Origin: Sphingomonas vulcanisoli
GTDB taxonomy: Bacteria; Pseudomonadota; Alphaproteobacteria; Sphingomonadales; Sphingomonadaceae
Direction of reading: 5' to 3'
Assembly (NCBI RefSeq): GCF_011761305.1
Contig: NZ_JAAOZC010000003.1
Span: 124,001-188,000 of the forward strand
DNA length: 64,000 nucleotides
Shown here: piece after piece, positions 6,591 to 18,214 of the stretch
Position numbering within the stretch: the stretch's first letter is position 1
Layout: the number at the start of each line of letters is the position of its first letter
Notes under the pieces: model-generated
Seen by the model: only the letters and a program-made list of their open reading frames with translations
Databases searched by the model: none
Told to the model about the DNA's origin: nothing
Program-made: the position numbers and the translations under genes

Positions 6591-7432
6591 CGGGCAAGCA
6601 AACGCCCGAAGGCCGCGCGGGTCGCAATCGCCAGCATCTCGATCTTGCTATGGTGGACGCGCTCGCTGAGCGGATCGCGGGTCTTGAGGCGGCGGACGAG
6701 GTTCATCGCCAGCGCGTGGATCACCGCCACCTCGAGCGCAAGCCGCTTGTCCTTGATATTTCCTGAGAAAGCGGCGGAGCGATGGAGCAGGGCTTCGGTC
6801 CGCTCGGCGGCATCGACGATCGCGGCGCGTAGCCCGGGCGTCGCGCGGTCGCCGCCGAGGTCTTCCGTCCGGCCGCCGTGCGCGCGGAGTAACTCCTGCG
6901 GCAGATAGACGCGATCGATCGCGCGATAATCCTTGGCGCAATCCTGGAGGTGATTGATCACCTGCAGCGCCGCGCAGAGCGCATCGTTGGCGGGCCAGAG
7001 ATCGCGGCTTTCGCCATGAACGTCGAGCACGTAGCGCCCGACCGGCATCGCCGAAAAACGGCAATAATCGATCAGATCGTCCCAGCTTTCATAACGGTTT
7101 CGGGTACAATCGCGGGTGAAGGCTTCCAGCAGATCGAGCGCGTGCCAGCGATCGATCCCGTGCGCCCTCTGAACCTCGCGCAGCGCGACCGAGGCCGGAT
7201 CGGCATCGCTGAGCCCGATGATCGTGTCGTTCATCGCTTCGAGCCGGGCGAGCTTGTCGGCGGGCGAAGCCTCGGCATTATCGGCGACATCGTCGGCCCC
7301 GCGCGCGAACCTGTAAAAGGCCATGATCTGCGCGCGATATTTCGGCGCCACGATCGCCGAGGCGACGGGGAAATTCTCGTCCTTATGGCCCTTGCCCGAG
7401 GCGAGGCTTTCGGCGGAGATGGGCGCGTTCAT
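6587..7432 (-). CDS. hpnC: HpnC, hydroxysqualene synthase
   Basis: Turns presqualene diphosphate into hydroxysqualene. It is a squalene/phytoene synthase-fold protein with the motifs ARGADDVADN and LQDCAKDY, where the second motif has lost an aspartate compared with HpnD. RVYLPQELL follows, as in the family. Start is ATG 7432 (MNAPISAES, 281 aa), which overlaps the hpnB stop by 4 nt. The open frame continues upstream to 8167, but that part is the shadow of hpnB. Confidence 0.95.
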   Translation of the reverse strand: MNAPISAESLASGKGHKDENFPVASAIVAPKYRAQIMAFYRFARGADDVADNAEASPADKLARLEAMNDTIIGLSDADPASVALREVQRAHGIDRWHALDLLEAFTRDCTRNRYESWDDLIDYCRFSAMPVGRYVLDVHGESRDLWPANDALCAALQVINHLQDCAKDYRAIDRVYLPQELLRAHGGRTEDLGGDRATPGLRAAIVDAAERTEALLHRSAAFSGNIKDKRLALEVAVIHALAMNLVRRLKTRDPLSERVHHSKIEMLAIATRAAFGRLLAR

Positions 7433-8553
7433 GGCTGCAGCTGCGCCTGGGCGCGGCCCTTCCACATGCCGCCCTTGCCCCGCCAATGATCCCAGGCGGA
7501 AACGAAGGTGGCGCCCGCATAGAAAGCCGCGATTGACGGCAAGGCCCAGCCCCACAAAGGCGAGCGGCGGTAGAAGCGCAGCATCGGCTGGAAGCTCAGC
7601 GCCATCAGCGCCCAGGCGGCAAGGCCGAGCCAGCGCGGCAAGCCGTGCGCGAACAAGGTAAGCGCGGGCGGGGCGAGGTAGATCAGCGCCATGCCGATCA
7701 AAGTACCCGCAAGCGCCAGCGGCGAATAGCCGAGCTGCGCGTAGGCCGAGCGGGCGATCATCCGCCCGATATCGCGCCAGCCGCCATAGGGCCGGATGCT
7801 GACCGAGCGGCGGGTGAGCGACAGACGGATCGGACCTTGGCGCTTCATCGCGCGGCCCATCGCGCAATCGTCGATCAGTGCGGCGGCGATCGTCTGAAGA
7901 CCACCGACCCGGGCCAGCGCCGCGCGATCGGCCAGCATGCAGCCGCCCGCCGCGCCCGCTATCCGGGAGGCGGGACGGTTCACCGCCGCGAAGGGATAGA
8001 GCATCTGAAAGAAGAAGACGAAGGCGGGGACGAGCGCGCGCTCGGCGGGGCTGTCGCAGCGCAGTTCCGCCATCAAGGTGTGCAGGGTCAGTCTCTCGGC
8101 CACGGCGCGGGAGGTGAGCATCCTGAGCGTGTCGGGAGCGTGAACGATATCGGCATCGGTGAACCACAGATATTGGGGGTCTTCGCCCGCCGCGATCCGG
8201 CCCTGCTCCATCGCCCAGAGCTTGCCCGTCCAGCCGCGCGGCAAGGGCGTGCCGGGGAGGATGCGGAGGTTGGGCGCGCCGAGCGACCGCGCGATCTCGG
8301 CGGTGCCGTCGCTGCTGCCGTCGTCGACCAAAATAATTTGGAGATCGCCGGGATAATCCTGCGCGGCGATCGATCCGATCGCGCGGGCGATCACGTCGGC
8401 CTCGTCGCGCGCGGGGACGATGGCGGTGACCTTGGGCCAGTGCACGGGGACGGGGAAAAGCGCCTCGTCCCGCTCGCGCGCCAGCCAGAAACCGTTGCGG
8501 GCGGCGAGCAAGCCGATCCAGACTGCCAGCGCCAGCACCGCCAGCCAGATCAT
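7429..8553 (-). CDS. hpnB: HpnB, hopanoid-associated glycosyltransferase
   Basis: Family 2 glycosyltransferase found in hopanoid clusters; its exact acceptor is not established. An N-terminal membrane helix (residues 2-20) precedes the GT-A core: VTAIVPARDEAD, ILVDDGSSDGTAE and the metal-binding WFTDADIVH. At least three hydrophobic segments follow residue 275, so the active site is anchored at the cytoplasmic face. Length is 374 aa. It overlaps hpnA and hpnC by 4 nt each. Confidence 0.93.
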   Translation of the reverse strand: MIWLAVLALAVWIGLLAARNGFWLARERDEALFPVPVHWPKVTAIVPARDEADVIARAIGSIAAQDYPGDLQIILVDDGSSDGTAEIARSLGAPNLRILPGTPLPRGWTGKLWAMEQGRIAAGEDPQYLWFTDADIVHAPDTLRMLTSRAVAERLTLHTLMAELRCDSPAERALVPAFVFFFQMLYPFAAVNRPASRIAGAAGGCMLADRAALARVGGLQTIAAALIDDCAMGRAMKRQGPIRLSLTRRSVSIRPYGGWRDIGRMIARSAYAQLGYSPLALAGTLIGMALIYLAPPALTLFAHGLPRWLGLAAWALMALSFQPMLRFYRRSPLWGWALPSIAAFYAGATFVSAWDHWRGKGGMWKGRAQAQLQP

Positions 8554-9545
8554 GTCAGCATTCCGTGCGCGCTCGACCAGGCCAGCGCGTCGGCAATGCC
8601 CTGTTGCCAGGGGCGGTGCGCGTAGCCAAGTTCGGATTCGGCGCGGGCGCTGGAGAAATACATGTGTGTGCGGCTCATGCGCAGCGTGTCCAGCGTCATC
8701 CGGGGTTCGCGCCCGCTGAGCCGCGCGAAGCCCTCCATGGCCAGCGCGACGGGCACGAGCGGGGCGATCGGCAGCTTCCTCGCGGTGAACGGACGGCCGA
8801 GCTGGGCATCGATCTCGGCGAGCATCGCGCCTAGCGGCACATCGTCCCCGCCGAGGATGTAGCGGCGGCCGATCTTGCCTTTTTCCAGCGCGAGCAAAAG
8901 ACCGTGCGCGACATCGTCGACATGGACGAGGTTGAGCCCGGTTTCGACATAGGCGGGCATCCGCCCGTTGGCGGCATCGACGATGATGCGCCCGGTGGGC
9001 GTCGGCTTCACGTCGCGCGGGCCGATCGGGGTCGAGGGCAAAACGATCGTCGCGGGCAGGCCCTGCTCGGAGACCATCCTTTCGACCAGCCGCTCGGCGA
9101 CGGTCTTGCTCTTCTTGTAGGCGCCGATCGCATTTTCGGCGGTGGCCGGGTGGTCCTCATCGGAAGGGCGATCGGGCAGCGGTTTCAGCGTGGCGACGCT
9201 GGAGGTGTAGACGATGCGCTGCACCCCCGCTTCGAGCGCGGCCTCCATGATGTTGCGCGTTCCCATGCCGTTGCTGAGGATGATATCGGCGGGCTTGGGC
9301 ACCCACAGGCGATAATCGGCGGCGACATGTGCGAGCGCGCCGCAGCCCTCGAGCGCGGCGACCAGCGAGGCTTTATCATCGAGATCGCCGGTGACGATCG
9401 TGCCGGGAAAATCGGCGAGGTTGGTGCGGTCGCTCGACGCGCGCGCCATGCCCCGCACTTTGTAGCCCGCATTCGCGAACACGCGCGCGACGGCGGAGCC
9501 GACGAAGCCCGTTACGCCGGTTACGAGGATGGTGTCGCCGTGCAT
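8550..9545 (-). CDS. hpnA: HpnA, hopanoid-associated sugar epimerase/reductase
   Basis: Extended short-chain dehydrogenase (NAD-dependent epimerase family). The Rossmann motif is ILVTGVTGFVGSAV near residue 5, and the catalytic YKKSK lies near residue 149 after YTSSVATL. The substrate is not firmly known; HpnA is thought to act on the hopanoid sugar headgroup or on a dehydrosqualene-type intermediate. I chose ATG 9545 (MHGDTILVTG, 331 aa) because the 45 residues upstream translate repeat B1. It is the first gene of the minus-strand hpn operon and is divergent from hpnI. Confidence 0.92.
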   Translation of the reverse strand: MHGDTILVTGVTGFVGSAVARVFANAGYKVRGMARASSDRTNLADFPGTIVTGDLDDKASLVAALEGCGALAHVAADYRLWVPKPADIILSNGMGTRNIMEAALEAGVQRIVYTSSVATLKPLPDRPSDEDHPATAENAIGAYKKSKTVAERLVERMVSEQGLPATIVLPSTPIGPRDVKPTPTGRIIVDAANGRMPAYVETGLNLVHVDDVAHGLLLALEKGKIGRRYILGGDDVPLGAMLAEIDAQLGRPFTARKLPIAPLVPVALAMEGFARLSGREPRMTLDTLRMSRTHMYFSSARAESELGYAHRPWQQGIADALAWSSAHGMLT

Positions 9546-9608
9546 CGCGGCGTGATCTAGGCGGCGGGGGCGGAATTGAGAAGGGCGCGAGCGGTTACCA
9601 CCGGTAAG

Positions 9609-9687
9609 CCCGCTCGTCCCGAGCGAAGTCGAGGGACGTGCCACGAGCGACACGCAGCGTGTCTCGACTACGCTCGACACGAACGGG
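9609..9687. repeat. Palindromic repeat family B, copy B1 (hpnA/hpnI)
   Basis: Imperfect inverted repeat with arms containing CCCGAGCGAAGTCGAGG and TCGACTACGCTCGACACG. It fills over half of the 145-nt divergent gap between hpnA and hpnI. Copies of the same element are at 43890-43970, 51212-51292 and 52698-52776. Confidence 0.88.
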
Positions 9688-9690
9688 GAG

Positions 9691-10935
9691 GTGGTTCAAT
9701 CGCATCGGATGGCGACGATCCTGGCCTGGCTGTTGTGCATGCTCGCGATCGGCGGGATGGTGACGACGCTGTATAGCGCGGTGGCCGTGGCGCGCTTTGC
9801 CGGGCGGAAGTCAGTGGTGGGACCGGCCGAGCCTGTGAGCCTGCTCAAGCCGCTGCATGGCGCCGAGCCGGGGCTGGCGGACAATCTCGCGGGGTTTTTC
9901 GACCAGGATTGGGATGCGCCGATCCAGATGGTAACGGGCGTGCAGCGCGCGGACGATCCGGCGCGGGAGGTGCTCCACCAATTCCGTCATTCCCGCGCAG
10001 GCGGGAGCCCACTCGGGACGGGGGCCGCTTCTCCACTTGAAGGTCCGATTATGGATCCCCGCCTGCGCGGGGATGACGAGATTAGCGAGGTCGTCGATCC
10101 CACCTCGCACGGCGCCAATGCCAAGGTCTCCAACCTTATCAACATGCTGCCCGTCGCGCGGCACGATCTGATCGTGATCAGCGATGACGATATGCGGGTG
10201 CCGCGCGACTATCTCGCCATGCTGGCGGGCGCGCTGGCCGCGCCGCAGGTGGGCGCCGTGACCTGTGTCTATCGGGGTGAGGGTGTGGCGGGCCGCTGGT
10301 CGCGGCTGTCGGCGGCGGGGGCGAGCTACCACTTCCTGCCCGCGGTGGTGATGGGTCTATCGCTGGGGCTCGCTAAGCCGTGCATGGGATCGACCATCGC
10401 GCTCCGCCGCGCCACGCTGGCGGCGATCGGCGGCTTCGAGGGCGTCGCCGATACGCTGGCCGACGATTATGCGATCGGCGCGAAGGTCCGCGCTCTGGGC
10501 CTTGATGTCGTGTTGCCGCCGATGCTGTTGGTCCACGAATTTCCCGAAGCCGGCCTCGGTGCGCTGTGGCGGCACGAACTGCGCTGGCAGAAGACGCTGC
10601 GCATTGTCGATCCGATCGGCAATGCCGGCATGGTCTTCACCTATCCGCTGCCCTTCGCCCTCGCCTTGATTCCGCTGATGCCGCGCCTCGGCCTCACACT
10701 CACCGCGCTGGCATTCGGCGCGCGGCTGTTGCTCAAGCGCATCATTGATCGCTGGGCGGGAGCACCCACTTGTTCAGCCTGGATGCTGTTTCCCCGCGAT
10801 ATCCTCGCGCTGGCGCTATACCTGCGGGCGTTTGTCGTGCGATCGGTTGATTGGCGGGGGCAACAGCTAGTAATGGCAGGCAAAGGCCGCGTCACGGCCC
10901 AATCCTATGAAGGCCCTGCGGGGCTGGCGGAGTGA
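9691..10935 (+). CDS. hpnI: HpnI, hopanoid glycosyltransferase, with an in-frame repeat insertion
   Basis: Transfers N-acetylglucosamine to bacteriohopanetetrol, starting the BHT-glucosamine and cyclitol-ether branch. An N-terminal helix, SLLKPLHGAEP, HGANAKVSNLINM and the metal site VISDDDMRV (D165-D167) mark the GT-A core; C-terminal membrane segments and RWQKTLRIVDP follow. Residues 98-131 (HSRAGG...LRGDDE) are not family sequence: they are the translation of palindromic repeat C1, which leaves the frame open. The start is GTG 9691 or, more likely for the family, ATG 9709 (MATILAWLLC); neither is ideally spaced from GGGGAGG at 9685-9691. Confidence 0.92.
   Translation: MVQSHRMATILAWLLCMLAIGGMVTTLYSAVAVARFAGRKSVVGPAEPVSLLKPLHGAEPGLADNLAGFFDQDWDAPIQMVTGVQRADDPAREVLHQFRHSRAGGSPLGTGAASPLEGPIMDPRLRGDDEISEVVDPTSHGANAKVSNLINMLPVARHDLIVISDDDMRVPRDYLAMLAGALAAPQVGAVTCVYRGEGVAGRWSRLSAAGASYHFLPAVVMGLSLGLAKPCMGSTIALRRATLAAIGGFEGVADTLADDYAIGAKVRALGLDVVLPPMLLVHEFPEAGLGALWRHELRWQKTLRIVDPIGNAGMVFTYPLPFALALIPLMPRLGLTLTALAFGARLLLKRIIDRWAGAPTCSAWMLFPRDILALALYLRAFVVRSVDWRGQQLVMAGKGRVTAQSYEGPAGLAE
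9985..10078. repeat. Palindromic repeat family C, copy C1, inside hpnI
   Basis: Left arm 9985-10006 (CGTCATTCCCGCGCAGGCGG...) pairs with right arm 10056-10078 (...GCCTGCGCGGGGATGACG) with one bulge and a short mismatch, around a 49-nt loop. It lies between the third core strand of HpnI and the conserved VVDPTSHGANAK, and is translated. A related element lies at 49160-49247 between murB and ddl. Confidence 0.9.
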
Positions 10936-10944
10936 TCGACGACT

Positions 10945-12393
10945 ATGCTGCGTTCCCTTTTCCTGCAGGCCCCCTCGTTCGACGGCTACGATGGCGGTGC
11001 CGGCGCGCGCTATCAGATGAAGCGCGAGGTCCGCAGCTTCTGGTATCCCACCTGGCTCGCCCAGCCTGCCGCGATGGTGGAAGGATCGCGGCTGATCGAT
11101 GCGCCCGCGCACGATCAGATGTGGGACGATATCGCGCATGAGGTGGACGGCAAGGAGCTGATCGTCCTCCACACCTCGACGCCCAGCTTCGGGCAGGACA
11201 TCCGTACCGCCCGGCTGATCAAGGAGCGCAACCCGGATGCGCTGGTCGGCTTCGTCGGCGCCAAGGTTGCGGTCGAGCCCGAAAAGAGCCTTGCCGCCAG
11301 TGCCGACATCGATTTCGTGGCGCGCGAGGAATATGATTTCACGATCCTCGAGATCGCCGAGGGCAAGCCGCTCAGCGAGGTCGATGGCATTACGTATCGC
11401 GCGCCTGACGGCAGCCTCGTTGCCAACAAGCCGCGCGCGATGATCGAGGATATGGACTCGCTGCCCATGGTCTCGCCCGTCTACAAGCGCGACCTGACGA
11501 TCGAGAAATATTTCGGCGGCTATCTGCGCCACCCCTATGTCAGCTTTTACACGGGGCGGGGCTGCAAGAGCCGCTGCACCTTCTGCCTGTGGCCGCAGAC
11601 GATCGGCGGGCACAATTACCGCTTCCGCTCCATCCCCAAGGTGATCGAGGAGGTGCAATATATCCTCCGCGAGATGCCTGAGGTGAAGGAGATCTTCTTC
11701 GACGACGATACGCTGACCGACGTCCACGATCGCGTCGAGGATCTGGCGCGCGCGCTTGGCGAGCTCGGCTTCGGCAAGCCCGGCTTCAAGGTTTCGTGGA
11801 GCTGCAACGCCAAGGCCAATGTGCCGAGGAAGACGCTGGAGATACTCAAGGCCAATGGCCTGCGCCTGCTGCTCGTCGGCTATGAGAGCGGCAACCAGAA
11901 GATCCTGCACAATATCAAGAAGGGCCTGCTGGTCGATGTGGCGAAGCGGTTCGCGCGCGATTGCCACGATCTCGGCATCGTCGTCCACGGCACCTTCATC
12001 CTCGGCCTTCCCGGCGAGACGCTGGATACGATCGAGGAGACATTGGCCTTCGCCAAGGAGGTCAATCCGCACACGCTGCAGGTGAGCCTCGCCGCGCCCT
12101 ATCCGGGCACGTTCCTCTACAAGCAGGCGATGGACAACGGCTGGTTCGACGGCAGCGATCATCTGCTCACCGACGGCGGCACGCAGATCGCGCAGCTCAG
12201 CTATCCGCACCTGCCGGCGAGCGTGATCTTCGACAAGGTCGAGGAATTCTACAAACGCTTCTACTTCCGCCCGAGCAAGATCGGCTCGATCGTCTGGGAG
12301 ATGGTGCGCGATTGGGACATGATGAAGCGCCGCCTGCGCGAAGGCGTCGAATTCTTCAGCTTCCTCAAGAACCGCAAGCAGGCGCCCGCGTGA
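10945..12393 (+). CDS. hpnJ: HpnJ, hopanoid radical SAM enzyme (BHT cyclitol ether formation)
   Basis: B12-binding-type radical SAM protein that contracts the glucosamine ring of BHT-glucosamine to the cyclitol ether. Residues 60-140 form a cobalamin-domain-like region (ELIVLHTSTPSFGQD). The cluster motif is C207-x3-C211-x2-C214 (RGCKSRCTFC), followed by IFFDDDTLT, LLLVGYESGNQ and HGTFILGLPGET, all typical of the B12/SAM family. Length is 482 aa. It starts 9 nt after hpnI, and its stop overlaps the GTG of hpnK. Confidence 0.95.
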   Translation: MLRSLFLQAPSFDGYDGGAGARYQMKREVRSFWYPTWLAQPAAMVEGSRLIDAPAHDQMWDDIAHEVDGKELIVLHTSTPSFGQDIRTARLIKERNPDALVGFVGAKVAVEPEKSLAASADIDFVAREEYDFTILEIAEGKPLSEVDGITYRAPDGSLVANKPRAMIEDMDSLPMVSPVYKRDLTIEKYFGGYLRHPYVSFYTGRGCKSRCTFCLWPQTIGGHNYRFRSIPKVIEEVQYILREMPEVKEIFFDDDTLTDVHDRVEDLARALGELGFGKPGFKVSWSCNAKANVPRKTLEILKANGLRLLLVGYESGNQKILHNIKKGLLVDVAKRFARDCHDLGIVVHGTFILGLPGETLDTIEETLAFAKEVNPHTLQVSLAAPYPGTFLYKQAMDNGWFDGSDHLLTDGGTQIAQLSYPHLPASVIFDKVEEFYKRFYFRPSKIGSIVWEMVRDWDMMKRRLREGVEFFSFLKNRKQAPA

Positions 12394-13463
12394 GCGACAA
12401 ACCTCCCCGCGATCCGCGCGGGGGGGCTAGCAAACATGGTGGCGCCTGGTGGCGGGAGGATGAGAAGCCGCCGCGCTTCCCCCTTCCGCCCGCGCTCAAG
12501 AAACTTGTCGAGCCGAAGCCCAAGAAGGCGCCCAAGCCCAAGAAACCAAAGCCGGCCAAGGAAGCCAAGCTCCCCAGCCCGCCGCGCCCGCCAAAGCCGC
12601 GCTGGCAATCGGGCAGGAGGCTGATCGTCACCGCGGACGATTTCGGCGCTTCGGTCGCGGTCAACGAAGCGGTGGAGCGGGCGCACCGGGAGGGCATTCT
12701 CACTGCCGCGAGCCTAATGGTGGCGGGGGAGGCCGCCGCCGATGCGGTGGCGCGCGCCAAGGTGATGCCCGGCCTGGGCGTCGGCCTGCATATCGTGCTG
12801 GTAGAGGGGCGGCCGGTATTACCGCCCGATCTGATCCCCGATCTGGTCGACGCGGATGGCCATTTCCGCACCGATATGGCCTGGCTGGGCACAGAGATTT
12901 TCTTCCGCCCGCTGGTCCGTGCGCAACTGTATGACGAGATCGAGGCGCAGTTCGAGAGGTTTGCCGCCACCGGCCTCGCGCTCGATCATGTCAACGCGCA
13001 CAAGCATTTCCACCTGCACCCGACGATCGCGGGCCTGATCCTGGAGATCGGCGCGCATTTCGGGCTGAACGCCGCGCGCGCGCCGATCGAGCCGCTGGCC
13101 GTGCTCAACGCGGTCGAGCCGACCAAGGCGAGTTCGGTCGGCCGCCTGTCGGCTTATTATGCGCGATCGGTGGCGGAGCGCTTTCGCGATTCTTGGGTGC
13201 TGGTGCCCGATCAGGTGTTCGGCATCGCTTGGAGCGGCGCCTTGACCCGCTATCGGCTGGCGGGGCTGATCGGAAATTTGCCCGAAGGCTTGAGCGAAAT
13301 CTATGTGCATCCGGCGACCGGCGACTATCCCGGCTCGGCGCCCGGCTATCTGTATGCCGATGAGCTCGCAGCCTTGACCGATCCCGCGATCGGGACCGAA
13401 ATCGCGGCACGCGGCATCACGCTCGGCACGTTCGCGGATTTTGCGAGGAAGGAGACGGCATGA
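12390..13463 (+). CDS. hpnK: HpnK, hopanoid N-acetylglucosamine deacetylase, with a Lys/Pro-rich N-terminal extension
   Basis: YdjC/ChbG-like carbohydrate deacetylase that deacetylates GlcNAc-BHT. The core begins with RLIVTADDFGAS (metal-binding D83-D84) and contains HVNAHKHFHLHP, with the remaining metal and catalytic histidines. The start is GTG 12390, overlapping the hpnJ stop (GTGA). The first ~72 residues form an extra segment rich in Lys and Pro (KPKKAPKPKKPKPAKEAK); family members usually begin close to the VTADD strand. No start codon nearer the core was found in frame, so the tail is probably real. Confidence 0.9.
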   Translation: MSDKPPRDPRGGASKHGGAWWREDEKPPRFPLPPALKKLVEPKPKKAPKPKKPKPAKEAKLPSPPRPPKPRWQSGRRLIVTADDFGASVAVNEAVERAHREGILTAASLMVAGEAAADAVARAKVMPGLGVGLHIVLVEGRPVLPPDLIPDLVDADGHFRTDMAWLGTEIFFRPLVRAQLYDEIEAQFERFAATGLALDHVNAHKHFHLHPTIAGLILEIGAHFGLNAARAPIEPLAVLNAVEPTKASSVGRLSAYYARSVAERFRDSWVLVPDQVFGIAWSGALTRYRLAGLIGNLPEGLSEIYVHPATGDYPGSAPGYLYADELAALTDPAIGTEIAARGITLGTFADFARKETA

Positions 13464-14353
13464 CTTATTTCGATCGCAGCATGGTGCCGTCCGCGCCGCT
13501 TGCGCCCCCGCACGATCAGCCGATCAAGCGCGGCAGCCGCGAACATCTCGCGCTGATGTGCCGTACCCTGCTCGACACGCATGACCCCTACAAACCGGCG
13601 CTGATCGACTGGCCCAAGCTGACGCCGGAGGTGCAGGCCAAGATCGTCTCGCTGCCGATCTGGGACATGGCGGTGCAGACCGAGGGCCGCACCGGCCTGT
13701 TTGTGAAGACTTTCGGCGAAACGGTGAAGGATCCTCTGCTCAAGAGCGCGGTGGAGATGGATGCGTTCGAAGAGAGCCGCCACAAGATCGTCCTCGCCGA
13801 TATGGTCCGCGCCTACGGCATCCAGCTGGAGGACGAACCCGACTATCCCAAGCCCAAGGATGCCGAATGGGCGTTCATGCGCTCGGGCTATTCGGAGTGC
13901 ATCGATAGCTTCTTCGGCTTCGGACTGTTCAAGATCGCCAAGGATACCGGCTTCTTTCCGCCTGAGCTGATCGACACGTTCGAGCCGGTGATGCGCGAGG
14001 AGGGGCGGCATATCCTGTTCTTCGTCAACTGGGTGAGCTGGTGGCGGCGCAACATGCCGCTGTGGCGGCGCCCCTGGTTCGAAGCCAAAGTGCTGGCGGT
14101 GTGGCTGTTCCTTATCTGGGAGCGGATCGATATGGCCAAGGGCATGGGGAACAACACCAAGGCGCAGGAGAATAATTTCACGCTCAACGGCTCCAAGGAG
14201 CTGGGCGTGGAGGTGAGCTTCCCCGAGCTGGCGGCGATCTGCATTGCGGAGAATGACCGGCGGCTGGCGCCTTATGATCCAAGGCTGCTGCGGCCCAGGT
14301 TCGTGCCGGGGGTGATGCGGCTGGTGCTGAAGGTGCTTCGGAAGCCGGCCTGA
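13460..14353 (+). CDS. Ferritin-like diiron protein of the hopanoid cluster, function unknown
   Basis: A 297-aa protein with a complete di-iron ligand pattern of the ferritin-like four-helix bundle: E75 (QTEGRTG), E105-x2-H108 (FEESRH), E146 (YSECID) and E181-x2-H184 (REEGRH). This set occurs in diiron oxygenases, desaturases and oxidases. A hydrophobic stretch near residues 207-222 (VLAVWLFLIWE) suggests membrane contact. ATG 13460 overlaps the hpnK stop by 4 nt, so it is the fourth gene of hpnI-J-K. A role in oxidative tailoring of hopanoids is inferred from position and metal site; I know of no assigned function. Confidence 0.8.
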   Translation: MTYFDRSMVPSAPLAPPHDQPIKRGSREHLALMCRTLLDTHDPYKPALIDWPKLTPEVQAKIVSLPIWDMAVQTEGRTGLFVKTFGETVKDPLLKSAVEMDAFEESRHKIVLADMVRAYGIQLEDEPDYPKPKDAEWAFMRSGYSECIDSFFGFGLFKIAKDTGFFPPELIDTFEPVMREEGRHILFFVNWVSWWRRNMPLWRRPWFEAKVLAVWLFLIWERIDMAKGMGNNTKAQENNFTLNGSKELGVEVSFPELAAICIAENDRRLAPYDPRLLRPRFVPGVMRLVLKVLRKPA

Positions 14354-14488: not shown

Positions 14489-14893
14489 TCAGGCGCCCGG
14501 CGCCCCGATGGCGACGTTCATCCGCGCGGTGGCGATCGGGCGTTCGGGATCGTCTTGCCAGGCTTCCACCGCGACATTGGCGATGCGCGTACCGATGCGG
14601 ACGACCTCGCCGCGCGCATAGGTCTCCACCATCAGGCCGGGGCGCATATAATCGACCGTGACGCTGATCGGCTTGAAGCGTTCGCGCGCCTGCGCCGGAT
14701 CGTCGAGCGTGGCATCGATCGCGGCGATGGCGGCAATCTCCAGCAGCCCGGCGAGCGCACCCCCATGGATGCGCTCCGGCGCGCCACCCAACCCTTCGGA
14801 CCAGGGCATCGCCAGCAACGGCGCGTCGCCGTCGGCTTCGACGATGCGAATGCCGAGGAAATCGGCGTAGGGCAGCAGCGCGACCTTGGTCAT
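14489..14893 (-). CDS. PaaI-family hotdog thioesterase (second of a pair)
   Basis: A 134-aa single-hotdog protein. RIHGGALAGLLEIAAIAAI matches the HGG-alpha-helix signature of PaaI/YbgC-type acyl-CoA thioesterases, and VTVDYMRPG is the matching central strand. ATG 14893 (MTKVALLPY) overlaps the stop of the upstream thioesterase by 4 nt. The two homologous subunits may form a heterodimer or act on different acyl-CoAs; substrates cannot be told from sequence. Confidence 0.85.
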   Translation of the reverse strand: MTKVALLPYADFLGIRIVEADGDAPLLAMPWSEGLGGAPERIHGGALAGLLEIAAIAAIDATLDDPAQARERFKPISVTVDYMRPGLMVETYARGEVVRIGTRIANVAVEAWQDDPERPIATARMNVAIGAPGA

Positions 14894-15345
14894 GACGCGG
14901 CACCGAAGCCTTCGGCGCTCAGCATGAAAGTGGCGGTGACGTGCGCGATCGGATCGTGCGGATCGCCATCGTGCGCCATGCCGCGCGTAAAGGCGATGCG
15001 CCGCGTCAGCCGATAGCATTCGCCGCGGCCGGTGACGCGGTGACCGGGCTGCGCGGGCCGGAGATAATCGATCCGCAGATCGAGCGTGGCATGCTGCAGA
15101 AACTCGCCGCGCTTCAACCAGACGGCGGTGCCGCACACCGTATCCATCAGCGATACGATCGGGCCGGAGGCGAGGATGCCGGTGGAAAGATCAGAGATCA
15201 GCCGCCGATCATAATCCAGCGTCAGCTCCGCCCAATCGGCGCCGTGCGCCGCATAACGGATACCCAGCGCCACGGTATGACCAGAGCGAGATGCGACCAA
15301 TTGCGCGATATCCGAAGGCAGGGAACTGGCCACGGCTTGATCCAT
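14890..15345 (-). CDS. PaaI-family hotdog thioesterase (first of a pair)
   Basis: A 151-aa hotdog-fold protein. SGPIVSLMDTVCGTAVWLK replaces the usual HGG helix, with D68 as the likely catalytic acid, and LRIDYLRPAQPG is the conserved strand. It is translationally coupled to a second, diverged thioesterase and shares a 105-nt divergent promoter region with the small-peptide cassette on the other strand. Confidence 0.85.
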   Translation of the reverse strand: MDQAVASSLPSDIAQLVASRSGHTVALGIRYAAHGADWAELTLDYDRRLISDLSTGILASGPIVSLMDTVCGTAVWLKRGEFLQHATLDLRIDYLRPAQPGHRVTGRGECYRLTRRIAFTRGMAHDGDPHDPIAHVTATFMLSAEGFGAAS

Positions 15346-15391: not shown

Positions 15392-15450
15392 CAGCCGCTC
15401 CAGCGCGATCGCCGCTTAGCTTTCGAACCGCACTAACGGGGAGAAACGCA

Positions 15451-15603
15451 ATGCGATCCGAAGACGCGAAAATACGGTTGGAGGACCTGCCCGAATTGCC
15501 CGACGCGGTGGGCATGGCGGGCGGTCTGGACGATGCGGGCGGCGGGCAGCCCTGCGCCGAAACCGGCGTGCTGCTGGCGTTGCTCGTTTACGGCGGCGGC
15601 TGA
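15451..15603 (+). CDS. 50-aa peptide, possible precursor peptide of an uncharacterised cassette
   Basis: ATG 15451 is preceded by a strong Shine-Dalgarno (GGGGAG, 7 nt spacing), and the stop at 15601 lies 4 nt before the next start. The N-terminal half is charged (MRSEDAKIRLEDLPELPDA). It is followed by VGMAGG and DDAGGG, and then by a C-terminal QPCAETGVLLALLVYGGG with one cysteine and a hydrophobic run. Acidic leader, Gly-Gly positions and a small residue-rich tail resemble RiPP or signal-peptide precursors, but I cannot match it to a known class. The reading is supported by start context and by tight linkage to 15608. Confidence 0.65.
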   Translation: MRSEDAKIRLEDLPELPDAVGMAGGLDDAGGGQPCAETGVLLALLVYGGG

Positions 15604-15607
15604 CCGC

Positions 15608-16474
15608 ATGCTGGCGGCGGCGATCGCCTGCCCGGAGGGGCGTCGGCGGCGACGGGTGTTGGGCGAGGACTTCGCTCGCGCGCTCGAAGCTGAGCCGGCG
15701 ATCGCCGCGCTGCGGGCTGCGCTGAAGGGCGGCGGCGATGCCATCGTAGCCGTCCGGCCCGTGCTGGAAGATTTGGGCTGGCTTGACCGCAGCTTCGCGC
15801 GCCTGATCGCCGCGTCGCGGGCCGATCCACTGTTCGAACCGCCGCTGCAGCCGATCGGCCAGGCGCCAAGGGAAGGCGTGCGGCTGTTCGCGAATCCGCG
15901 ATTGGCGATTAGCCTGCTGCGTCTGCCCAGCCCACGTGAGACGGCAGGGACGATTGGCTTTTCCGGGCAGGCCTTGCTGGTGCGTTTCCTAGGATGCGCG
16001 CCGACAGTACGTTTGTGGGGGTTGGACGACGGGCGTTGTCGCTTCGCCGGCGAGCGGCGGATCGGGGCGGGCGAGCTTCTCCTGATCGATGGCGTCAGCG
16101 AGGCCTGGTCAATCGCGCCCGGCTCCAAACCCGCGATCCTGGTGCAGGCGACGACGCGCGAGAGCGGCGTGCCGCTGGCGACCTATGACGTGGCGAGCGG
16201 CGCGCTGGTCGCTCGAACGGCTACCGATAGCGCGGCGATGCGGATGCAGCTGATCGCGAGCCTGCTCTGTCGGATGGAGCGCCACGACGCCGCGCCCGCG
16301 CTGCGCGCGGCCGCCGGAGCAGGCCCGCCGCACCTGCGCTGGCATATCGCGCGCGAACTGACCGCGATGGCGCCCGATCAGGCGCGGCCTCTGCTCGACA
16401 GGATGGCGTTGGCCGATCCGCATGCCGATGTCCGCGCGGCGGCGCGCCGGACGCTGGCGTTGCTCGCGGCATGA
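15608..16474 (+). CDS. Uncharacterised 288-aa protein with C-terminal HEAT-like helices, partner of the small peptide
   Basis: Start is ATG 15608 (MLAAAIACPEG), 4 nt after the peptide stop; the open frame reaches back to 15533 but that part overlaps the peptide gene. Residues ~95-200 are beta-rich with glycine turns (GFSGQALLVRFLG, GAGELLLIDGVSEAW), as in a cupin-like barrel but without obvious metal histidines. Residues ~210-288 look like two or three HEAT/armadillo helices (LRWHIARELTAM, VRAAARRTLALL). The domain order resembles the next gene, so the two may be distant paralogues working as a pair. No function is known to me. Confidence 0.7.
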   Translation: MLAAAIACPEGRRRRRVLGEDFARALEAEPAIAALRAALKGGGDAIVAVRPVLEDLGWLDRSFARLIAASRADPLFEPPLQPIGQAPREGVRLFANPRLAISLLRLPSPRETAGTIGFSGQALLVRFLGCAPTVRLWGLDDGRCRFAGERRIGAGELLLIDGVSEAWSIAPGSKPAILVQATTRESGVPLATYDVASGALVARTATDSAAMRMQLIASLLCRMERHDAAPALRAAAGAGPPHLRWHIARELTAMAPDQARPLLDRMALADPHADVRAAARRTLALLAA

Positions 16475-17367
16475 CGCTGGCGATCGATCCCGGCGCGCCG
16501 GAGCCGATGGCGCTCGGCGCTTTCCTCGCCGCGATGGAGGCGCGGGACTTCGATGGCGATGACGAGGCGGCTTATGTCGAGGCAGCGCCCCTGCTCGCGG
16601 GGCTTTCCGCCGATCGCGGCTTCCTGGGCGATCTGCTGATCGAGGCGCTCAAGGATCGCGCCGGCGCGCAGGAGCGCGACAATGGCTATGGTCCGCAGGT
16701 CGTGTTGCTGCATCGCGGGCCGGGCTGGTTCGTTCGCGCCAACCTGTGGCCCGAGGCGGGGGATGCGCTGGTCCGGGCGAGCGGGGCGGAGCGCTTCTTC
16801 TACGGCATCCCCCACGATCACAATTTCAGCTTCCTCACCGTCGGCCATTTCGGGCCGGGCTATTGGAGCGATTATTTCGAGCCGGACGGCGATTTCGTCG
16901 GCGTGCCCGGCGAGCCCGTATCGCTGCGCTTTATTGAGCGCACACAGCTGAGCGAGGGCAAGGTAGCGCTGTATCGCGCCCACCGCGATATCCACAGCCA
17001 GCTTCCGCCGGAGAGCCTCTCGGTCTCACTCAACATCGTTCAGGGCACGGCGGGGCGTGCGTTCCTCGATCAATATCGCTTCGATGTCGACCGCGGACGG
17101 ATCGCCGAGCAATTGGCGCGCAGCCCGATCGAGCCGCTGCTGGGCTTCCTCGCGCCGCTGGGCGGGGAGGAGGGGCGGAAACTGCTCGATCATTTCAGCG
17201 CGCATCATCCGTGCGACCGCATCCGTTTCGGCGCTTTCCGGGCGCTGGCCGATGCCGCTCCCGACGACCGTGCACGCTGTGCGGCGCTGGAGCGTGCGGC
17301 GGACGATGCCAGTGCGCAGATTTCCGGGCTGGCGCGGATGCTGTTTAAAACCTCCGAAATGGCCTGA
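16471..17367 (+). CDS. Uncharacterised 298-aa cupin-like protein, second partner of the cassette
   Basis: ATG 16471 overlaps the previous stop by 4 nt. The middle carries a histidine-rich cupin-like motif, FFYGIPHDHNFSFLTVGHF, then GPGYWSDYFEPDG and LYRAHRDIHSQLPPESLSVS, which could complete a metal site (H118, H120, H175-type histidines, numbering approximate). The last ~80 residues are helical (HPCDRIRFGAFRALADAA). Sphingomonad homologues of this type are, as I recall, often labelled hypothetical or transposase; there is no transposase catalytic motif here. The role is unknown; metal-dependent modification of the small peptide is one inference. Confidence 0.7.
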   Translation: MTLAIDPGAPEPMALGAFLAAMEARDFDGDDEAAYVEAAPLLAGLSADRGFLGDLLIEALKDRAGAQERDNGYGPQVVLLHRGPGWFVRANLWPEAGDALVRASGAERFFYGIPHDHNFSFLTVGHFGPGYWSDYFEPDGDFVGVPGEPVSLRFIERTQLSEGKVALYRAHRDIHSQLPPESLSVSLNIVQGTAGRAFLDQYRFDVDRGRIAEQLARSPIEPLLGFLAPLGGEEGRKLLDHFSAHHPCDRIRFGAFRALADAAPDDRARCAALERAADDASAQISGLARMLFKTSEMA

Positions 17368-17409
17368 TCTTAATGCGTTGCTTGGCGGCGATGGTGGCAC
17401 GAAGGTCTG

Positions 17410-17853
17410 GTGCAGCTGTGCGTCGAAGGCGGAGATAGGGATCAGCGGGCGGCTATCGCCCATGCGCTTGGCGCGCTGGGCCATGAGGTCATCGCGGGCG
17501 GTGATCTGAGGGTGGTGATCGCGCCGCCGGTGCAGATCGATCGCGCGGCGGGCGTGGCGCTGGTGGCGGGGCGGCGCGTCCGCTTGACGCGGATCGAGCT
17601 GGCGCTGCTCGGCTGCCTGATCGATGCACCGGAGCCGCTCGACAAGCCCGCGCTGATCGCGCGGATCTGGGGCTATGGCTTCGATCCGGGGACCAATCTG
17701 GTCGCGGTTCATATTTCGCGGTTGCGCGCCAAGCTGGGGGCGGCGCTGACGATCGTCTATGGCGAAGGCGGCTATGCCATCACGGCGGAGACCAGTCCGG
17801 CGGTGCCAGTTCGAAACCGGCAAAATCGAACGCCGGAGCGACGATGCAGCTGA
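17410..17853 (+). CDS. Winged-helix transcriptional regulator lacking a normal receiver domain
   Basis: GTG 17410 opens a 147-aa frame. Residues ~55-130 are an OmpR/PhoB-type winged helix: RVRLTRIELALLGCLI, LIARIWGYGFDPGTNLVAVHISRLRAKL and the wing IVYGEGGYAI. The first ~50 residues are too short for a phosphoreceiver and show no acidic pocket, so DNA binding is probably not controlled by phosphorylation. It lies 42 nt after the cupin-like gene on the same strand and is probably the cassette regulator. Its 3' end overlaps the convergent DUF985 gene by 74 nt. Confidence 0.75.
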   Translation: MQLCVEGGDRDQRAAIAHALGALGHEVIAGGDLRVVIAPPVQIDRAAGVALVAGRRVRLTRIELALLGCLIDAPEPLDKPALIARIWGYGFDPGTNLVAVHISRLRAKLGAALTIVYGEGGYAITAETSPAVPVRNRQNRTPERRCS

Positions 17854-18214
17854 CCAAGGTCCAGGCGCCGAGCGATTGGGCCGCCTGCCATGCGTGTGCG
17901 GGGACAATGCTCTGCAGTGCCTCGCCGGGACCAGGGCCGAGCGTTACGTCATTGCGATCGATCTGTAAGCGCAACGGCGCATCAGCCTGCCATAGCCAGA
18001 TTTCGGCGGCATCGACGCGGTGCCAGTGCGACCGCTCGCCTTCGCCGAGCAGGAAGTGGATGCTGCTCACGGCACCGCGCCCACCGTGGGCCGGCGTGTC
18101 GCGCCAAAGTTCGCGGTAACTGCCGCCCTCGGGATGCGGTTGGAGATCAAGCGCGGTGCGGACCGTCGCCGCTTCGAGTGTCGTATCCCGGAGATCGATT
18201 TCGGAGCTGGTCAC
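17780..18214 (-). CDS. DUF985 (cupin_5) family protein
   Basis: A 144-aa cupin-fold protein. LDLQPHPEGGSYRELWRD is the hallmark DUF985 N-terminal motif, followed by SSIHFLLGEGERSHWHRVDAAEIW, which contributes the barrel histidines, and the late SLGAWTLVSCIVAPAFDF. The family binds metals or small polar ligands; no reaction is established. ATG 18214 overlaps the stop of the upstream retropepsin gene by 4 nt, so the two are probably co-expressed. Confidence 0.85.
   Translation of the reverse strand: MTSSEIDLRDTTLEAATVRTALDLQPHPEGGSYRELWRDTPAHGGRGAVSSIHFLLGEGERSHWHRVDAAEIWLWQADAPLRLQIDRNDVTLGPGPGEALQSIVPAHAWQAAQSLGAWTLVSCIVAPAFDFAGFELAPPDWSPP

Follow-up and report, generated by a model that had tools for sequence, protein, structure and literature searches.

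A conserved short gene and a pair of predicted cysteine-dioxygenase-fold proteins in Sphingomonas vulcanisoli: a candidate peptide-modification cassette

The cassette described here lies in a 64,000-nucleotide window of the Sphingomonas vulcanisoli genome (contig NZ_JAAOZC010000003.1, positions 124,001 to 188,000; coordinates below are those of the window) and comprises four genes on the forward strand, encoding a peptide of 50 amino acids (aa), two larger proteins designated A and B, and a winged-helix protein designated W. The peptide gene (15451..15603, +, ATG start) was identified from the list of open reading frames (ORFs) and a family profile. A ribosome-binding site, GGGGAG (15438..15443, +), was read from the sequence 7 nt 5′ of its ATG. 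The encoded precursor-like peptide consists of an acidic leader with LEDLPELPDAVG, a Gly-rich linker and an aliphatic tail, CAETGVLLALLVYGGG. A gap of 4 nt separates it from the gene for A (288 aa, 15608..16474, +), which overlaps the gene for B (298 aa, 16471..17367, +) by ATGA; W (147 aa, 17410..17853, +, GTG start) follows B after 42 nt. The original prediction, made from the sequence without database searches, had described this four-gene arrangement, with a good ribosome site on the short gene and tight spacing to the genes behind it, and the description was confirmed, apart from W as a constant member. We consider it rather likely that the cassette is a peptide-modification system resembling those of ribosomally synthesised and post-translationally modified peptides (RiPPs), in which A and B would hold the acidic leader and B would oxidise the aliphatic tail.

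Within 11.0-21.5 kb of the window there are 86 ORFs of at least 40 aa, many of them spurious and overlapping, so that a chance ORF or an annotation artefact could in principle account for the short gene. For each of the 17 seed peptides, a hidden Markov model (HMM) was built without that seed and without sequences at least 50% identical to it, a design meant to reduce circularity, and was run against 9,620 ORFs of 20-200 aa. The window peptide scored 26.7 bits (E 2.2e-6), versus 12.7 bits for the best ORF off the cassette position, and 16 of the 17 seeds were recovered at E<0.05. Sixty-six loci with relatives of B were also collected, 60 of which include at least 1.5 kb upstream of B. A was upstream of B in all 60 of these long loci, and a peptide was detected upstream of B at E<1e-3 in 55, a count that is partly circular since the 17-seed profile was derived from such loci. 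In the remaining loci the peptide was detected at E 0.0036 (L025), was embedded in a longer ORF (L032 and L050), was represented by a weak candidate with E 1.2 in one scan and 0.022 in another (L039), or had its sole candidate, judged by eye, downstream of B (L066). The short ORFs upstream of B relatives share the leader consensus IDxxxLPxLxTxVGxxGS and an aliphatic tail.

Linkage of the peptide to B was examined in 199 genomes of the family Sphingomonadaceae, to which the window belongs, B being sought in all of them and the peptide by a 21-row profile, at least 12 rows of which derive from genomes of the same sample. B was found in 73 genomes and the peptide profile matched in 71: both were present in 69, B only in 4, a weak peptide match only in 2, and neither in 124. 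The peptide was detected in 69 of the 73 genomes with B versus 2 of the 126 without it (Fisher p 7e-46, a value for all genomes that overstates the evidence because the genomes are related). Removal of the 12 profile-source genomes left 57 genomes with both, 4 with B only, 2 with the peptide only and 124 with neither. Sixty-nine of the 73 peptide matches lay upstream of B on the same strand, the distance to the B match having a median of 1,034 bases. The presence of the cassette was patchy, and B was absent from six other genomes of the genus, one of which is 71% complete.

Constraint on the related peptides was estimated from the ratio of nonsynonymous to synonymous polymorphism (pN/pS), given here as uncorrected values from chosen subsets. 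In 18 Sphingopyxis peptides pN/pS was 0.31 for the leader, 0.70 for the linker and 0.48 for the tail, the linker thus being looser than the leader and tail that flank it; in 13 DD-type peptides it was 0.45 for the leader part and 0.37 for the tail part. A codon pattern typical of coding DNA had been expected for the short ORF, and this was found for the related peptides, the window's own gene having no close relative and standing outside the comparison. Together, the leave-one-out profile, the co-occurrence in 199 genomes and the pN/pS values make a chance ORF or artefact exceedingly improbable. We conclude that the 50-aa ORF is a genuine, conserved gene, and the key expectation of the original prediction, a conserved short ORF ahead of both large proteins, was upheld by the leave-one-out profile, by 55 of the 60 loci and by the co-occurrence across the 199 genomes.

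The composition of the peptides differed between their halves, Val and Ile making up 32% of the tail versus 15% of the leader. The single cysteine noted in the original prediction was not a general feature: a Cys fell within the last 26 residues of 14 of the 79 distinct HMM-found peptides, the other 65 having none there, and in the tail of 9 of 26 further peptides picked by hand.

Protein B was modelled with AlphaFold from an alignment of the window protein and 45 of the 66 B ORFs (46 rows), at a predicted local distance difference test score (pLDDT) of 92.6. In structure comparisons, residues 1-216 of the model matched mercaptosuccinate dioxygenase 8vni (E 3.2e-8) and the thiol dioxygenase 4tlf_A (Z 14.2, 162 residues, 3.1 Å); ADO and plant PCO structures were also among the matches, at Z 10.0-11.4. 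B is accordingly predicted to be a cysteine-dioxygenase-type cupin followed by HEAT-like helices (residues 220-297). Two of its three predicted iron ligands lie in His115-Asp116-His117 (16813..16821, +) and the third is His175 (16993..16995, +). These histidines are kept in all 46 rows and in all 21 distant relatives, a set from which L123 was left out, and the sequences H115-D-H117 and D-I-H175 align to the three iron ligands of six CDO_I proteins from other genomes. The PHDHNF motif that had been proposed as a metal site is present. HEAT_2 was weakly matched in 17 of the 46 aligned B proteins. In one distant family B has only 234-254 residues and matches only profile positions 1-194 to 1-224; the helical tail is therefore not required everywhere.

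The predicted fold and three-His metal site of B match those of a thiol dioxygenase. The Ser-His-Tyr outer triad described for thiol dioxygenases (PMC10966181, PMC8050391) is absent. The triad Ser-x-His-x-Tyr of CDO_I reads Ser-x-Asn-x-Met/Leu/Val/Ile in all 46 B rows, and in the 21 distant relatives Asn replaces the triad His in 20 and the Tyr is missing in every one. A Gln-type thiol dioxygenase was also considered: Gln76 is invariant in the 46 rows, one column off the Arg position, and Gln occupies the position in only part of the distant relatives. Neither a Pfam family for B nor a PF05995 match anywhere in the genome was found at E up to 1; NCBIfam gave no match for B, and searches by sequence against solved structures gave five, all at E 0.22 or more.

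The predicted fold of B, and the placement of the short ORF 4 nt ahead of A, would also suit a pair of small-molecule thiol dioxygenases whose translation is merely regulated by the short ORF. We regard this as very unlikely, given that the triad is changed in 46 of 46 B rows, that both halves of the related peptides are under constraint and that some loci carry duplicated peptides. Moreover, in L066, L134, L136 and L168 the peptide candidates picked by eye are located downstream of B, where a translational leader ORF would fail. Under the favoured reading of peptide modification, the reaction probably oxidises a side chain, aliphatic or other, rather than forming a sulfinic acid, which is unlikely because B lacks the triad His and Tyr and most tails lack Cys. 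Oxidation of a Cys thiol was rejected as the general reaction, with a tail Cys in 14 of 79 peptides and a changed triad; in the members that bear a Cys it is possible.

Protein A was modelled from the window protein and 44 of the 50 A ORFs (45 rows; pLDDT 93.1). The model matched YubC (3eqe_B) at E 3.3e-6 and 4qm9_B at Z 10.8 (142 residues, 3.0 Å), the latter tied with other cupins. The helical part, residues 201-284 (16208..16459, +), was delimited from the model and from a Pfam HEAT_2 match at E 7.1e-6, whose 26.7 bits are slightly under the cut-off of 27.7; HEAT_2 was detected, weakly, in 36 of the 45 aligned A proteins. Searches by sequence against solved structures matched this part to designed alpha-repeat proteins (best E 2.1e-5), and NCBIfam gave one weak match (E 0.19). 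No conserved HxH was found in the cupin of A, the HDH of many Sphingopyxis rows being N-terminal, so that A is predicted to be a cysteine-dioxygenase-type cupin without the His metal site. An alignment of the A profile with the B profile spans 266 columns (probability 58%, E 1e-4), and A and B are therefore most likely paralogues, A probably being a diverged copy without the metal site. The original prediction of a cupin plus HEAT-like helices, in the order of beta core and then helices, agrees with the AlphaFold models of both proteins and can now be sharpened to a cysteine-dioxygenase-type cupin with a metal site in B but not in A.

Protein W matched the Pfam OmpR-type DNA-binding domain Trans_reg_C at residues 54-111 (E 1.2e-11), and Pfam gave no match to a receiver domain in it, as had been anticipated for a winged-helix protein without a receiver. 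Of 62 loci, 17 have W downstream of B and 45 do not; W is an optional regulator, not the constant member that it had been taken for. Its match to OmpR DNA-binding domains and its optional occurrence also make W an unlikely binder of the leader.

The presence of W behind B in those 17 loci, together with the ADO and plant PCO structures that B matched, allows a different function, oxygen or redox sensing, in which B would oxidise or bind the peptide as a signal, as in ADO and PCO, W would act on expression and the peptide would be the messenger. The constrained tails and the fact that no exporter was recognised by eye beside the window cassette fit this account; it has to contend with the 45 loci without W, with the 65 of 79 peptides without a tail Cys, and with relatives in which two or three peptides are encoded, in some cases next to exporters. 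We judge sensing unlikely. For the sphingomonads, a physiological or signalling role is nonetheless as possible as an antimicrobial one, given the constraint on the tail and the lack of any recognised exporter next to the window's cassette.

Relatives of the cassette were also found in other proteobacterial families. In a phylum-wide sample B was present in 15 of 398 genomes, two of them outside the window's family. The families of these two outsiders had B in 6 of 99 genomes and in 4 of 98, and a different query, applied to 395 genomes of the first of these families, detected it in 21. Carriers include Luteimonas, a bin labelled Blastopirellula and a plasmid of Alteromonas stellipolaris. Peptides in 27 wide loci (L119-L123, L133-L140 and L161-L174) were judged by ribosome site and hydrophobic tail, and at least one candidate was accepted by eye in 20 of them; none was found in L135, L137 or L169, which were left out of the rescan, or in the short locus L077. 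Tandem peptides were seen in L133, with three, and in L161, L163, L165 and L166, with two each, a peptide of the '..EPV..' type being paired with one of a Cys-Gly type in these four. In L139 and L140 the peptide has what looks, by eye, like a typical double-glycine leader.

Transporter genes accompany several of these cassettes. Pfam identified HlyD, MacB/FtsX and a second ABC ATPase in L133 and L161, and an ABC-2 membrane protein in L161 as well. By tblastn, similar ABC proteins were found directly behind B in L163, L165 and L166, and HlyD/MacB-like genes near the cassettes of L164, L167 and L168; L170-L172 gave no such transporter genes by tblastn. The layout of a RiPP or peptide-signal system, proposed in the original prediction, is in its RiPP-like part supported by the tandem peptides and the exporters of relatives; W as a constant part of that layout did not hold. 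A gene for a ribosomal precursor beside presumed modification genes, a generic trait of RiPPs, is present.

In L161, L163, L165 and L166, the pairing of two peptides with an ABC transporter immediately after B would also suit an unmodified bacteriocin-like peptide, with A and B serving as immunity proteins or as a chaperone for a hydrophobic peptide, and with the metal site of B being structural. The complete conservation of the three His and their neighbouring residues points instead to catalysis, and loci in which no transporter is seen still have A and B as their constant part; we regard the bacteriocin account as quite unlikely.

Further arrangements of A-like and B-like genes were noted. 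L003 and L006 each contain two A-B pairs, the second, at about 8000-9950, beginning some 1 kb beyond the first, and in L003 this second pair is preceded by a second peptide of another type (E 3.6). A shorter B-like protein of 244 aa is encoded in L135 (5623-6357) and L137 (3514-4248), with a 228-aa gene directly upstream of it in both; in L135 it has an HNH form of the metal motif and its gene directly precedes a second A-B pair. The Vibrio plasmid NZ_CP080241.1 (L162) carries a distant B-like protein and a partner gene at 7189-8745, between recombinase and restriction-modification genes.

The surroundings of the window cassette were named by eye. Upstream, radical-SAM-like, YdjC/HpnK-like and ferritin-like genes (10945-14353, +) suggest a hopanoid-type operon, and a small cupin-like gene (17780-18214, -) overlaps the end of W on the opposite strand. 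Two adjacent small hotdog/PaaI-thioesterase-like genes, T1 and T2 (14489-15345, -), point away from the cassette, and a homologous pair adjoins the cassette in 25 of the 60 long loci. This pair was rejected as a partner: four of the six congeners without B also have T1, each of them with T2 next to it, so that a shared neighbourhood is the simpler account. In one congener without B (L176) the pair lies near ORFs resembling, by eye, YajC and SecD; in the window such ORFs come after the cassette, consistent with gain or loss of the intervening stretch. At E 0.01, PADLOC matched none of the proteins A, B and W, and the cassette was on this ground rejected as a defence system.

From the genes and their linkage, the predicted folds, the conserved histidines, the changed triad and the constraint on related peptides, we infer an A-B complex, leader binding, iron, a reaction, processing and export in this strain, and a role for the product. 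The short gene would encode the precursor, with its acidic leader (IDxxxLPxLxTxVGxxGS) and its Val/Ile-rich tail. A and B, as diverged copies of one ancestral cysteine-dioxygenase-like protein, would form a heterodimer, in which B would bind one iron through His115, His117 and His175 and activate O2. A, having lost its metal site, would hold the leader together with the HEAT helices, and the tail would reach the active site of B and be oxidised there. In some relatives the product is probably exported by MacB/HlyD-type transporters, a further ABC transporter serving export or self-protection.

Several results weigh against this reading. No Pfam or NCBIfam match links A or B to a known enzyme that defines a RiPP class. 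By sequence, B resembles the six CDO_I proteins weakly (probability 29%, E 6e-4), and A shows no significant match to them (E 0.13); because of this, the kinship of A and B to CDO_I rests mainly on the models. Among the peptides, only 62 of 105 have a tail in which at least 8 of 10 residues belong to AVILMFGC, and the tails of the sphingomonads are conserved, unlike those of many antimicrobial RiPPs. In the leave-one-out test one seed, s7 of the Sphingobium type, was not recovered (E 11, under the best off-position ORF), and the recovery of s16 was weak (E 0.036). Four genomes have B and are missed by the peptide profile (G068, G076, G108 and G155), two have weak peptide matches without B (G018 and G107), one has a second, stray match (G015), and in one the match lies 40 kb from B (G162). 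No candidate peptide was accepted by eye in L162, L170, L171 or L172, the rescan included. Inspection by eye of the ORFs of 11.0-21.5 kb, without a full domain search, revealed no recognisable exporter or peptidase. Among 140 loci searched by tblastn, many of them short, the HlyD of L133 matched only L133 and L134, and the MacB permease of L133 matched only L133.

Among the matches listed from the open-access literature, subscription papers being outside its scope, nothing described a peptide accompanied by such a protein pair, and beyond HEAT repeats no Pfam or NCBIfam model covers the window peptide, A or B. The cassette probably encodes an undescribed peptide-modifying enzyme pair and is probably a variant of a RiPP-like system. 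More tentatively, and with the odds somewhat against it, the cassette could define a new class of natural product, made under the guidance of a leader by a heterodimer that pairs an active with an inactive cysteine-dioxygenase-fold protein, the three-His iron site having been turned from the oxidation of thiols to that of aliphatic side chains. B is carried by about one-third of the sampled genomes of the family (73 of 199), yet is hardly covered by domain models. If B oxidises the peptide, a cysteine-dioxygenase fold with a changed active site would join the iron enzymes that modify ribosomal peptides, and the A-B pair provides a hook for the mining of genomes for overlooked peptides.

The known systems differ from the cassette in several respects. 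The cysteine, 3-mercaptopropionate and mercaptosuccinate dioxygenases (PF05995 and kin) share with B the predicted cupin fold and the three-His metal site; B lacks the triad His and Tyr and matches no Pfam family at E up to 1, and the cassette adds a HEAT-like extension, the metal-free partner A and an adjacent peptide gene. Double-glycine leaders end in Gly-Gly after an ELxxxE-type motif. Double-glycine and two-peptide bacteriocins likewise are short peptides that have a leader and a hydrophobic tail, and ABC transporters are found in some relatives of the cassette. Here, a dedicated dioxygenase-like pair is present and the window peptide has no clear double-Gly consensus, MAGG and AGGG being seen in it by eye and the ELxxxE-type motif being absent. 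The pairs MbnBC and TglHI, of the MNIO (DUF692) type, are alike in outline, with an iron oxygenase, a partner and a short peptide. MNIO enzymes are TIM barrels with several irons, whereas B is a cupin with one predicted iron and A resembles a paralogue of B. MbnBC and TglHI are described as an iron oxygenase and a partner protein acting on a peptide (PMC9016710), and an MNIO-type system as an O2-dependent nonheme-iron subunit with a partner and a short peptide substrate (PMC8888699). A further paper describes PbsQ as a cupin-like oxygenase that acts on a ribosomal peptide, is related to the JmjC protein BpmG, and operates beside an MNIO, an arginase and a B12-dependent radical-SAM enzyme (PMC12257519). 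PbsQ and BpmG are cupin/JmjC-like hydroxylases of RiPP clusters, and PbsQ resembles B, as here interpreted, in being a cupin-like oxygenase that acts on a ribosomal peptide, whereas in the cassette described here the pair of cupins is itself the constant core.

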